Shown in pieces: positions 8,350 to 63,170 of a stretch of 64,000 nucleotides of DNA. A program made the translations under genes and the position numbers. The stretch is from Catellatospora citrea (GTDB lineage Bacteria > Actinomycetota > Actinomycetes > Mycobacteriales > Micromonosporaceae), in the NCBI RefSeq assembly GCF_003610235.1, contig NZ_RAPR01000001.1:2170001-2234000 (forward strand), in the 5' to 3' direction. The notes beneath the pieces are model-generated. The model was given only the letters and a program-made list of their open reading frames with translations. It had not been told where the DNA came from and made no database searches. Position 1 is the first letter of the stretch; each line of letters starts with the position of its first letter.

Positions 8350-9129
8350 CTAGGGGGTGAGGCCGGAGCGGAGGTCTTGGGTGAGGGTGCGCAGGGCGGG
8401 GAGGCCGCCTTCGGCGAGGGCGGAGACGAGGGCGCTGCCGACGATGACGCCGTCGGCGTAGGCGCCCACCTCGGCGGCCTGGGCGCCGCTGCGGACGCCG
8501 AGGCCGACGCCGACGGGCAGGTGGCCCGCGGCGGCCTTGACGCGCGCGACCAGGGTCGGGGCGGCGCTGGAGGTGCTGTCGCGGGCGCCGGTGACGCCCA
8601 TGACCGCGGTGGCGTACACGAAGCCGCGGCAGTGCGCCACGGTCATCGCGATGCGCTCGTCCGTCGACGACGGGGAGACCAGGAAGATCCGGTCCAGCTT
8701 GTGCGCGTCGGAGGCGGCCAGCCACTCCTCCGCCTCGTCCGGGATCAGGTCCGGGGTGATCAGACCGGCGCCGCCGGCCGCGGCCAGGTCCCGGGCGAAC
8801 GCGTCGACGCCGTACTTCTCGACGGGGTTCCAGTAGCTCATGATCAGCACCGGAACGCCGGCGCCGGAGACGGCCTCCACGGTGTGCAGCACGTCACGGG
8901 TACGCACTCCCCCGGCCAGCGCCTGCTCGGTGGCCCGCTGGATGACCGGGCCGTCCATGACCGGGTCGGAGTACGGCAGGCCGATCTCCACCAGGTCGAC
9001 CCCGGACTCGATCATGGCCTTGACCGCGCCGATGCCCTCGGCCACCGACGGGAACCCGGCGGGCAGGTAACCGACCAGGGCCGCCCGGCCTTCGGCCCGC
9101 GCCTTCTCGAAAGCGACGCTGACGCTCAC
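8350..9129 (-). CDS. trpA: tryptophan synthase alpha subunit
   Basis: Cleaves indole-3-glycerol phosphate to indole and glyceraldehyde 3-phosphate; indole is channelled to TrpB. 259 residues, normal length. The catalytic pair is present as Glu48 and Asp59 in LVEIGLPYSDPVMDGP. The phosphate-binding glycine loop GVGLGVRSG and VIVGSALV near the C terminus are intact. The start is GTG 9129, which overlaps the stop of a 28-codon mini-ORF by GTGA; that mini-ORF in turn overlaps the trpB stop. Translation is therefore probably coupled through the mini-ORF. Family D palindrome 1 follows. Confidence 0.97.
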   Translation of the reverse strand: MSVSVAFEKARAEGRAALVGYLPAGFPSVAEGIGAVKAMIESGVDLVEIGLPYSDPVMDGPVIQRATEQALAGGVRTRDVLHTVEAVSGAGVPVLIMSYWNPVEKYGVDAFARDLAAAGGAGLITPDLIPDEAEEWLAASDAHKLDRIFLVSPSSTDERIAMTVAHCRGFVYATAVMGVTGARDSTSSAAPTLVARVKAAAGHLPVGVGLGVRSGAQAAEVGAYADGVIVGSALVSALAEGGLPALRTLTQDLRSGLTP

Positions 9130-9212
9130 TGTGCCACCTTCCGTTCGCGACTGCGGGGCTCGCTGCGGTCACCTCGGCCGGAGGCCGAGCCGGAAACGCC
9201 GTTCGCGCTCAC
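9126..9212 (-). CDS. 28-codon bridging mini-ORF between trpB and trpA
   Basis: GTG at 9212 overlaps the trpB TGA (GTGA), and its own TGA overlaps the trpA GTG (GTGA). The peptide starts VSANGVSGS and contains [11 protein letters not shown] near its end, echoing the ERSE motif of the his and polyketide mini-ORFs. No homologue is known to me; the likely role is carrying ribosomes across the 80-nt gap. Whether the peptide itself acts is unknown. Confidence 0.5.
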
Positions 9213-10426
9213 CCGATCACTTCCCCGCTGTCGAACAGGCCGAAGTACTCGCCCGCGGTGTGCATGTCCTTGTCGCCGCGGCCGGACAGGTTGACGATGA
9301 CCGTCGGCTCGTGGCCCAGCTCCTCGCGCAGCGCCGGGATCACCCGCAGCGCCCCGGCCAGCGCGTGCGCGCTCTCGATCGCCGGGATGATGCCCTCGGT
9401 GCGGCATAGCAGCGCGAACGCGTCCATCGCCTCGGCGTCGGTGACGGGCTGGTAGCGGGCCCGGCCCTGGTCGTGCAGCCAGGCGTGCTCGGGGCCGACC
9501 GACGGGTAGTCCAGGCCCGCCGAGATCGAGTGCGACTCGATGGTCTGGCCGTCCTCGTCCTGCAGCAGGTACGACCGCGAACCGTGCAGCACGCCGTGGC
9601 TGCCGCCGGTGATGCTGGCGGCGTGCCGGCCGGTCTCGATGCCGTCGCCGCCCGCCTCGAAGCCGTAAAGGCGCACGGACTCGTCGGGCACGAAGGCGTG
9701 GAACATGCCGATGGCGTTGGAGCCGCCGCCCACGCAGGCCGCGACCGCGTCCGGCAGCGCGCCGGTCAGCTCCAGGCACTGCGCCCGCGCCTCCACGCCG
9801 ATGCCGCGCACGAAGTCGCGCACCATCGCCGGGAACGGGTGCGGCCCGGCCGCGGTGCCGAGCAGGTAGTGCGTGTCGTCGACGTTGGTGACCCAGTCGC
9901 GCAGCGCCTCGTTGATGGCGTCCTTGAGGGTGCGCGAGCCGGTCGTCACCGGGATGACCGTGGCCCCGAGCATCTTCATCCGGGCCACGTTGAGCGCCTG
10001 CCGCTTGGTGTCGACCTCGCCCATGTAGACCACGCACTCGAGGTCGAGGTATGCCGCGGCGGTCGCGCTGGCGACGCCGTGCTGCCCCGCGCCGGTCTCG
10101 GCGATGACCCGGCCCTTGCCCATGCGCTTGGTCAGCAGGGCCTGGCCGAGCACGTTGCGCACCTTGTGCGCGCCGGTGTGGTTGAGGTCCTCGCGCTTGA
10201 GCAGGATGCGCGCGCCGCCGACGTGGGCCGACAGGTGGGTGGCGTCGTACAGCAGGGACGGGGTGCCCGCGTAGTCGCGCAGCATCCGCTCGAATTCGCC
10301 GGTGAACTCGGGATCCGCCATCGCCTTGCGGTAGTGCGCGTCCAGCTCGTCCAGGGCCGCGATCAGCGCCTCCGGGACGAAGCGGCCGCCGTACGGGCCG
10401 AAGTGGCCCCTGTCGTCGGGCAACAT
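9209..10426 (-). CDS. trpB: tryptophan synthase beta subunit
   Basis: PLP enzyme joining indole and serine to give tryptophan. 405 residues. Lys88 in [11 protein letters not shown] is the PLP Schiff-base lysine, GAGQHGVA lines the active site, and GGGSNAIG binds the PLP phosphate. The C-terminal [10 protein letters not shown] is conserved. ATG 10426 follows an AGGAGG-type site, and a small hairpin lies just upstream. It is cotranscribed with trpC (59 nt upstream) and linked to trpA by a mini-ORF with 4-nt overlaps. Confidence 0.98.
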
Positions 10427-10447
10427 GTGCCCCTCCTTCGGCGTAAG

Positions 10448-61338: not shown

Positions 61339-61961
61339 AGCACGCCCTTCGTGCTCGGGACCGCGCCCGCGCTGCGCGGGTCGATCTCCACGGCGGCACG
61401 CAGGGCCCGGGCCAGCGCCTTGAACTGGCCCTCGATGACGTGGTGCGCGTCGGGCTTCTGCCCCGGGCGGGAGGCCCGCAGCACCGACACGTGCAGCGTG
61501 ATCCGCGCGGTCTGCCCGAACGACTCGAAGATGTGCCGCGTCATCGAGGTCGGGTAGACGGGGCCGCTGCCCGGGTTGATGTAGTCGGCGATGTTCTCCG
61601 GCTCGTCGTGCACCACGTACGGCCGCCCGGACAGGTCGACCGCGGCCTGCACCAGCACCTCGTCCATCGGCACCACCGCGTCGCCGTACCGGCGGATGCC
61701 CGCCTTGTCGCCCAGTGCCTGCGCGAACGCCTCGCCGAGGGCGAGCGCGGTGTCCTCCATGGTGTGGTGCGCGTCGATCTCCAGGTCGCCCTCGGTGCGC
61801 ACGGTCAGGTCGAAGCCGCCGTGCCGGGCGATCTGGTTCAGCATGTGATCGAAGAAGCCGACCCCGGTACCGATGTCGCCGCGGCCCGTGCCGTCGAGGT
61901 CGATCTCGACGAGGACCTTGGTCTCCTTGGTGACCCGCTCGACCCGTCCGGTCCTGGTCAT
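61335..61961 (-). CDS. hisB: imidazoleglycerol-phosphate dehydratase
   Basis: Dehydrates imidazole glycerol phosphate. 208 residues, the monofunctional form without phosphatase. The two manganese-binding His clusters are in DHMLNQIARHG / EIDAHHTMEDTALALGEAF and in ARPGQKPDAHHVIEGQFKALARALR. The ATG overlaps the stop of a 22-codon mini-ORF (ATGA), and its own stop overlaps the next mini-ORF (GTGA). Confidence 0.97.
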   Translation of the reverse strand: MTRTGRVERVTKETKVLVEIDLDGTGRGDIGTGVGFFDHMLNQIARHGGFDLTVRTEGDLEIDAHHTMEDTALALGEAFAQALGDKAGIRRYGDAVVPMDEVLVQAAVDLSGRPYVVHDEPENIADYINPGSGPVYPTSMTRHIFESFGQTARITLHVSVLRASRPGQKPDAHHVIEGQFKALARALRAAVEIDPRSAGAVPSTKGVL

Positions 61962-62026
61962 GCCCTTGCCTCGCTTCGCTCGTCCCCGGCCTGCGCACGG
62001 GGGTAACCGGTCGGCCGCGCGCTCAT
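61958..62026 (-). CDS. 22-codon bridging mini-ORF between hisC and hisB
   Basis: ATG 62026 overlaps the hisC stop (ATGA), and its TGA overlaps the hisB ATG (ATGA). It encodes [14 protein letters not shown] followed by DERSEARA. The DNA GAGCGAAGCGAG is shared with the other bridging ORFs. Confidence 0.55.
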
Positions 62027-63102
62027 GGCCGCAGCTCCTTCATCGCATTCAGGAACGCGGTCGTCTCCTGCTCGGTGCCCGCGGTGACGCGCAGCCAGCC
62101 GGGCAGGCCCACGTCGCGGACCAGCACGCCGTGGTCCAGCAGAGTCTGCCAGGCCGCCTGCTGGTCGGCGAAACGTCCGAACAGGACGAAGTTCGCGTCC
62201 GAGTCGGCCACCGTCCAGCCACCGGCACGCAGCTCCGCGACGATGCGGTCGCGCTGTGCCTTGATCGCCTCGACCGTGCCCAGCAGCACGTCCGCGTGCG
62301 CCAGCGCGGCGCGGGCGGCGGCCTGGGTGAGCGCGGAGAGGTGGTACGGCAGGCGGACCAGCTGCACCGCCTCGATCACCGCCGGGTGCGCGGCGAGGTA
62401 GCCGACCCGCGCCCCGGCGAAGGCGAACGCCTTGCTCATGGTGCGGCTGACCACCAGCCGCGGGTGCCGGTCCAGCAGCTCCAGCGCGCTGGGCGTGCCG
62501 GGGCGGCGGAACTCGGCATAGGCCTCGTCGACCACGACCAGGCCGGTCGTCTCGGCGAGCACCGCCTCGATCACCTTGAAGTCGAGCGCGGTGCCGGTCG
62601 GGTTGTTCGGCGAGCACAGCAGCGTCAGCGCGGGCCGGTGCGCCCGGACCTGCGCGACCGCGTGCTCCACGGTCAGCCCGAAGTCCGCGTCGCGGCGGCC
62701 GTCCACCCAGGTGGTGGCGGTGCCGACGGCGAGCAGCGGATGCATCGAGTACGCCGGGCCGAAGCCCAGCGCCGTGCGCCCCGGCCCGGCGAACGCCTGG
62801 AACAGCTGCTGCTGCACCTCGTTGGAGCCGTTGGCGGCCCACAGCTGCTCGGCGCTCAGCCCGTGCCCGCAGTAGGCGGCCAGGTCGGCGCGCAGCTTCA
62901 CCGCGTCGCGGTCGGGGTAGCGGTTCAGGTCCGCGATCTCCCCGGTGATCGCCCGACTCACCGCCCGCACGACCTCGTCGGGCAGCGGGTACGAGTTCTC
63001 GTTCGTGTTCAGCCGCACCGGCACGTCCAGCTGCGGCGCGCCGTACGCGCTGAGCCCGCGCAGATCCTCCCGCAGCAGCTCCTGCACCCAGTCCACGCTC
63101 AT
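62023..63102 (-). CDS. hisC: histidinol-phosphate aminotransferase
   Basis: PLP enzyme making histidinol phosphate. 359 residues. The PLP lysine is in [61 protein letters not shown] and [14 protein letters not shown] are family motifs. ATG 63102 overlaps the stop of a 23-codon SERSER mini-ORF, and its stop overlaps the next mini-ORF. Confidence 0.97.
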
Positions 63103-63170
63103 GCCGCCGCCTCGCTCCGCTCGTTGCCGGCATCGTCCGAGCTCATGATTCGCTCGCTGCGCTCGCTCAT
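63099..63170 (-). CDS. 23-codon SERSER mini-ORF between hisD and hisC
   Basis: ATG 63170 overlaps the hisD stop (ATGA), and its TGA overlaps the hisC ATG (ATGA). The peptide is [11 protein letters not shown] followed by [12 protein letters not shown]. The DNA holds AGCGAGCGCAGCGAGCGA, identical to the ligase/ACP junction 25 kb away. It probably couples hisC translation to hisD. Confidence 0.55.

Follow-up and report, generated by a model that had tools for sequence, protein, structure and literature searches.

A 64,000-nt stretch of the Catellatospora citrea genome (the window) contains six gene junctions bridged by very short open reading frames (ORFs), and five of them are occupied by members of one family of short repeats. 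These repeats insert at 4-nt overlaps between stop and start codons, keep a reading frame along their length, leave the chain of overlaps from gene to gene unbroken and carry compensatory base changes in two pairing regions, one around the start of the mini-ORF and one around the start of the downstream gene. It is probable that such insertion-type repeats maintain the coupling from gene to mini-ORF to gene, both starts being clasped by hairpins. A first-pass annotation of the window had reported the six mini-ORFs, all located on the minus strand, and had read them as copies of a single element. Their coordinates were confirmed, as were the ATGA or GTGA by which each of the six overlaps the upstream stop (6/6) and the 4-nt overlap with the downstream start which closes five of them (5/6). 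The single element was recovered at five junctions, while trpB/trpA proved to hold a different repeat.

Repeat family and conserved reading frame

Within the window, AGCGAGCGMAGCGAGCG (with up to two mismatches) occurs four times versus 0.30 expected, a number equaled by none of 100 shuffles, and the 3′ piece of the element occurs twice versus 0.00 expected. In the whole genome (9.33 Mb, four contigs), GAGCGNAGCGAG is found at 142 places, compared with 30 for its reversal; many of these places are paired or in tandem. The unit family was described from 100 of the 142, those among the matches listed, and a model (R1) was built on 47 own-genome units selected as in frame. A search of the own genome at E ≤0.1 returned 115 R1 matches at 99 sites: 98 sites on contig C1, including 15 arrays of two or three units, and a single match on C2. 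Five of the six window junctions are matched by R1, hisB/hisH weakly, and trpB/trpA is unmatched. The units mostly measure about 60–80 bp, and their right end contains, just ahead of the downstream start, a GAGG resembling a Shine-Dalgarno sequence; those with both overlaps, interspersed and partly in tandem, contain ORFs of 54–81 nt.

Among the 112 full-length R1 matches, a start/stop tetranucleotide is present on the left in 95, on the right in 106 and on both sides in 91. Of these 91 matches with ATGA, GTGA or TTGA at both ends, 85 have a length of 3n and 83 are open. As a control, pairs of such tetranucleotides located 50–100 nt apart in the same stretches, units included, are in frame in 449 of 2374 cases and open in 320. 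Because the 47 seeds of R1 had been chosen in frame, the 65 non-seed matches and the units from other genomes constitute the fairer sets. Among the former, 44 have both ends, of which 38 are in frame and 36 open; among model-picked units of the latter, 56 of 58 are both in frame and open. Similarly, the spacing between adjacent units in tandem equals 2 modulo 3 (3n-4) in 14 of 16 pairs. The 83 open units are also embedded between genes: 77 run on into another unit or into an open frame of 80 codons or longer, 69 have one in front of them and 63 have both, while ordinary tetranucleotides make such contacts on both sides in 6% of 1876 cases (a separate count, with a threshold of 100 codons).

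A further set of 28 standard-core units from the genus g4 separates frame from peptide. Thirteen of them have one extra base in the right loop and remain 3n overall, 14 have a short loop in frame 0 and one is off. The extra base shifts the right half to PEPSxSExxA instead of AERSExxA. Since the length stays at 3n even with the right half in another frame, it is continuity, not the peptide, that is kept. That the SERSER/ERSE peptide matters is not borne out: what is conserved is the length of the frame, and neither the peptide nor the codon pattern is.

Pairing around the two start codons

In hairpin II, an AUGCC located in the middle of the unit pairs with the GGCAU at the downstream start. 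Pairing was evaluated on two alignments, A1 (the 47 own units) and A2 (78 units from several genera). On A1, none of 500 shuffles attained any of five pairing measures; on A2, four of the five were attained by 0/500 shuffles and the remaining one by 1/500. Over the 18 pairs of both hairpins, A2 contains 53 both-side changes versus 11.0 ± 2.6, and sliding the partner column by 1–3 leaves 10–17. When mutual information was computed on this alignment of 78 units, which had been made without structure, the strongest column pairs were 64-91 and 62-93, which belong to hairpin II, and column pair 10-33 ranked fifth. This latter pair connects the initial base of the mini-ORF start codon with a base 22 nt further on and suggests a hairpin I of the form AU-GA-GC-GA-GC-GNA-GC-GA-GC-GA-AU around the mini-ORF start. 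Such a stem would combine sheared G-A pairs with a GNA loop. In accordance with this pairing, the start base covaries with its partner, ATG going with T and GTG with C: the counts of ATG-T, ATG-C, GTG-T and GTG-C are 45, 3, 4 and 6 in the own genome, 21, 1, 0 and 2 in the rest of the family, 16, 1, 0 and 9 in g4, and 22, 0, 0 and 3 in the genus g3. In eight rows with unlike left and right starts, most partners match the start on their own side once G-U pairs are admitted, the exceptions being L147 (right) and L179 (left).

The units and hairpins of the window are as follows; the genes flanking the junctions were confirmed by Pfam in nine of nine proteins scanned.

63099..63170, minus strand: hisD/hisC unit, 72 nt, full-length copy (R1 E 1.1e-14)
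63148..63170, minus strand: hairpin I at the hisD/hisC mini-ORF start, AU-GA-GC-GA-GC-GNA-GC-GA-GC-GA-AU in its proposed register (covariation)
63101..63133, minus strand: hairpin II at the hisC start, AUGCC...GGCAU (covariation on A1 and A2; present in the minimum free energy (MFE) structure of the hisD/hisC copy)
37631..37705, minus strand: ligase-ABM/ACP unit, 75 nt (R1 E 1.1e-12)
37633..37665, minus strand: hairpin II of the ligase-ABM/ACP unit, 8 bp, ATGACGCC/GGCGTCAT, compensated relative to the consensus
37266..37340, minus strand: ACP/accDA unit, 75 nt (R1 E 1.2e-10; shuffle z -2.48)
61958..62026, minus strand: hisC/hisB unit, 69 nt, left half diverged (R1 E 6.3e-8)
61309..61338, minus strand: hisB/hisH remnant encoding VSERGEEKA, 30 nt (weak R1 match, E 0.024)
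9126..9212, minus strand: ORF of a different repeat in the trpB/trpA overlap, 87 nt (no R1 match)

Two further units, in L005 (around 1489-1572) and L154 (1501-1593), have a perfect hairpin II of 13–14 bp together with an altered core (NARSGFAA, SARSGETA), as if their stems had been rebuilt.

Empty sites in sister species and spread among actinobacteria

Catellatospora belongs to the Micromonosporaceae, and the genus sample, which contains Catellatospora paridis (locus L159, within record NZ_ML769314.1), gave hisC loci in all 11 genomes and trpA loci in 10 of them, those in which trpA was matched. At hisD/hisC, the unit is present in three of 11 genomes (GGC-ATGAGC...GGC-ATGAGC) and the two genes otherwise overlap directly, as in GGCATGAGC. 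The hisC/hisB unit is likewise present in three of 11. The hisB/hisH junction is filled in six of 11 genomes, with a 75-nt ORF in three, a 30-nt ORF in two (the window genome included) and a different 42-nt ORF (L162) in one, and is empty in five. Because the same junction is empty in some sister species and filled in others, the repeat is of insertion type. The 30-nt form would be what was left at hisB/hisH after a loss between two copies of GAGCGNAGCGAG.

At each of the 33 his junctions, 4-nt overlaps follow one another without a break: 21 gene pairs overlap directly, 11 are joined through a single mini-ORF and the remaining pair through two. This last case is the hisD/hisC copy of L166, which at 68 nt is out of frame overall and runs as chained ORFs of 24 and 48 nt through an internal ATGA. 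This copy and that of the window have in common an unusual right half, CAACGAGCGNAGCGAGGCG; they may represent one old insertion lost in the other species, or a repeated arrival.

The trpB/trpA overlap (9126-9212) is occupied by an unrelated second repeat with an in-frame 87-nt ORF. It centers on AGCGAGCCCCGCAGTCGCGAACGG, and a related core is found at L041 and L044 of the same genome. From inspection of the sequences, this site is filled in three of 10 genus genomes and is a direct 4-nt overlap in seven. More than one repeat family may use the overlap as a landing site.

In relatives, R1 matched 79 of the 121 genomes of the family, in 28 of 44 genera (at 1e-4), and 91 of the 98 genomes of g4 (at 1e-3). 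Over the phylum, it matched seven of 396 sampled genomes at E ≤1e-3 under strict filters, three of which (G343, G129 and G299) look like another repeat or chance. In that phylum sample, R1 had no match in the nine g3 genomes among those listed. A wider model, R2, gave matches in 13 of 78 g3 genomes; a diverged unit with a 66–69-nt ORF is present in 23 of the 27 loci read there (30 in total), and the rest are partial units or left-half arrays. At two g3 loci (L278 and L297), the left half alone is in tandem with a period of about 30 nt, as if hairpin I multiplied on its own.

An exact pattern occurs in 10 named stretches, seven from Catellatospora, one from Planosporangium and two from Streptomyces. 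The Planosporangium and Streptomyces stretches (L169, L174 and L175) carry exact units, a distribution that suggests either interfamily transfer or an ancient dissemination. Elsewhere in the same class, one genome has a different repeat containing GGTCGTTGAGCGACGAGCGAAGC, in at least two copies before a gene (L115). Five matches in plasmid records, from Pseudomonas and Halobaculum and covering about a third of the query, were treated as chance, and an Rfam scan of six loci gave two matches, both below the curated score and outside the units.

Proposed relay, rival explanations and known systems

A mechanism can be proposed from this anatomy. The repeat would enter an ATGA or GTGA overlap and turn one overlap into two, so that the mini-ORF start overlaps the upstream stop, its own stop overlaps the downstream start and ribosomes could pass without a gap. 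On completing the upstream gene, a ribosome would open hairpin I, the putative clasp of the mini-ORF start, restart there and read some 20–27 codons. On finishing the mini-ORF, it would open hairpin II, which is predicted to clasp the downstream start and the GAGG, and restart on the downstream gene. Coupling would survive the insertion because a unit placed at the overlap bridges both genes, and the unbroken chains at all 33 his junctions seem to us the best support for such a relay. The pairing would act in the mRNA, the mini-ORF would be translated, and the repeat would persist by doing little harm to operons. Of the mobile or recurrent coupling module of the first-pass annotation, the recurrence and the insertion are supported, and so are a kept frame and a junction with genes at both ends far above control, which makes the element suited to translational coupling; the relay itself we infer.

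Several observations weigh against the proposed relay. In 21 of the 112 full-length matches, the overlap is missing on one side or on both, and among the 91 with both, six are out of frame and two more have an internal stop; because such broken or out-of-frame matches exist, an intact unit is not needed everywhere. In the window itself, the ligase-ABM/ACP mini-ORF is the exception to the downstream overlap, the ACP start (37597) being 33 nt past its stop. The start-codon counts exclude 56 of the 115 own matches, which have no standard left half, and the shuffle tests leave the relatedness of the copies in place. RNA folding is also less clear than covariation. Among 10 sequences folded, including the trp unit and the 30-nt remnant, eight have |z| <1.3 relative to shuffles and four are above 0, only ACP/accDA (-2.48) and L154 (-4.48) standing out. 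Hairpin II appears in the MFE structure of six of the eight full family units folded, being absent in hisC/hisB and L009. In its proposed register, hairpin I appears in that of L150 only, and hisD/hisC, ACP/accDA and L154 fold it in another register (CAUGA/UCAUG). Finally, such pairing would be equally compatible with single-stranded DNA and with RNA.

The strongest rival explanation, to which we give not quite an even chance, is that these are selfish repeats which are merely tolerated, the bridging form being a survival filter with no regulatory role. Their patchy presence in sister species, the shrunken remnants, the his junctions that nevertheless all remain chained and the degenerate copies persisting elsewhere fit such a history, and MIRUs, the mycobacterial interspersed repetitive units, are read likewise in a 2025 review (PMC12548453). 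The compensatory changes at both starts, on the other hand, suggest an upkeep of structure beyond landing. This explanation differs from the relay on the matter of benefit only, and both may well be true together.

In IS200/IS605 and REP/RAYT systems, the transposase recognizes hairpins and a 4-base target. The hairpins of the present family could similarly serve movement rather than translation, a Y1 (HUH) transposase mobilizing the repeat in single-stranded form, and the position at gene overlaps would merely reflect an ATGA/GTGA target. Such a 4-base target, the precise empty sites and the DNA folds, which show hairpin II in three of four units, are consistent with this explanation. We nevertheless consider it unlikely: Y1_Tnp (PF01797) is present in 18 of 79 repeat-carrying genomes versus 15 of 42 that lack the repeat, which reveals no link (presence only), and a bare 4-base target leaves the kept frame and the gene contacts unexplained.

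That the mini-ORFs encode functional small proteins (MSERSER...ERSEEKA) appears very improbable. The peptide is recurrent and the arginine of the right core is found in 48 of 48 units through the codons CGC, CGA, CGG and CGT, a feature which the search pattern favored. Over these 48 units, however, entropy amounts to 0.60, 0.75 and 0.68 bits at codon positions 1, 2 and 3, so third positions are not favored as sites of change; the right half of g4 units can be in the other frame described above, and g3 peptides differ (such as MSEACERI...RACE). Chance in a genome with 72% G+C and biased codons, where open frames are common, is refuted by the shuffles, the reversed-pattern and frame controls and the empty sites in sisters, and retains hardly any probability.

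These repeats offer a natural experiment on translational coupling, since sister species join the same gene pairs by a plain overlap, by a single unit, by a shrunken one or by two short frames in a chain. Many copies exist in many genomes, and their structure makes a clear prediction, namely that access to the downstream start is controlled by hairpin II. The same review (PMC12548453) presents it as an open question whether unfolding or ribosome scanning underlies coupling, and bridging repeats would allow these two models to be tested against each other. In addition, gene-start annotation may be misled by the repeats because overlapping open frames run into them.

The first-pass annotation knew of no description of such an element. 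In fact, elements with a like architecture have been described in mycobacteria: MIRUs are seemingly mobile, insert at start codons and contain an ORF coupled to the gene at -4 nt, as the review reports after Supply 1997 (PMC12548453). In M. tuberculosis H37Rv, tandem repeats of 46–101 bp have been reported at 41 loci (PMC3914561). The present repeats share with them, as far as these sources describe MIRUs, the short interspersed and sometimes tandem organization, the ORF coupled at -4 nt and the insertion at start codons; in our data, units within 46–101 bp, partly in tandem, 4-nt flanking overlaps and start-codon insertion were all found. A primer for a repeat of M. intracellulare is CGACGATGCAGAGCGAAGCGATG, according to another report (PMC10117815). 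This primer and the repeat family have GAGCGAAGCGA in common. The M. intracellulare repeat is one that we take to be a MIRU. A MIRU period of 77 bp would also be 3n-4.

More tentatively, and with odds below even, MIRUs could form a single branch within a larger actinobacterial superfamily, whose members bridge genes by way of two gates. Each unit would lock its own start and that of the following gene in hairpins of tandem G-A and G-C pairs, which would open only to a ribosome coming from upstream; any 4-nt overlap could thereby become an obligatory relay, lengthened by tandem copies, with the sequence drifting while chain and clasps remain.

Other known systems resemble the family in part. 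REP/RAYT and IS200/IS605 elements are also short hairpin repeats in many copies, with no transposase of their own and a 4-base target, whereas here an ORF bridges genes and Y1_Tnp is unlinked to the repeat across 121 genomes. Coupled leader or bridging small ORFs share the restart at overlapping start and stop codons, for which an RNA-unfolding model of coupling is given in the review (PMC12548453), but here the bridge is a repeated element, found at 99 sites and missing at many of the junctions in sister species. Among the matches listed in open-licence literature, no description of SERSER peptides or of the element strings was found, nor any report of comparable elements in non-mycobacterial hosts or of two start-clasping hairpins, a weak absence. 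With regard to MIRUs, the host differs, being Micromonosporaceae and relatives instead of mycobacteria, and the two start-clasping hairpins go unmentioned in the available portions of both MIRU accounts (PMC12548453, PMC3914561). Because the host is Catellatospora and the likeness rests on description instead of the sequence of the M. tuberculosis unit, the repeats are called MIRU-like and not MIRUs. Apparently new are the spread outside mycobacteria, the empty sites and the clasped starts.

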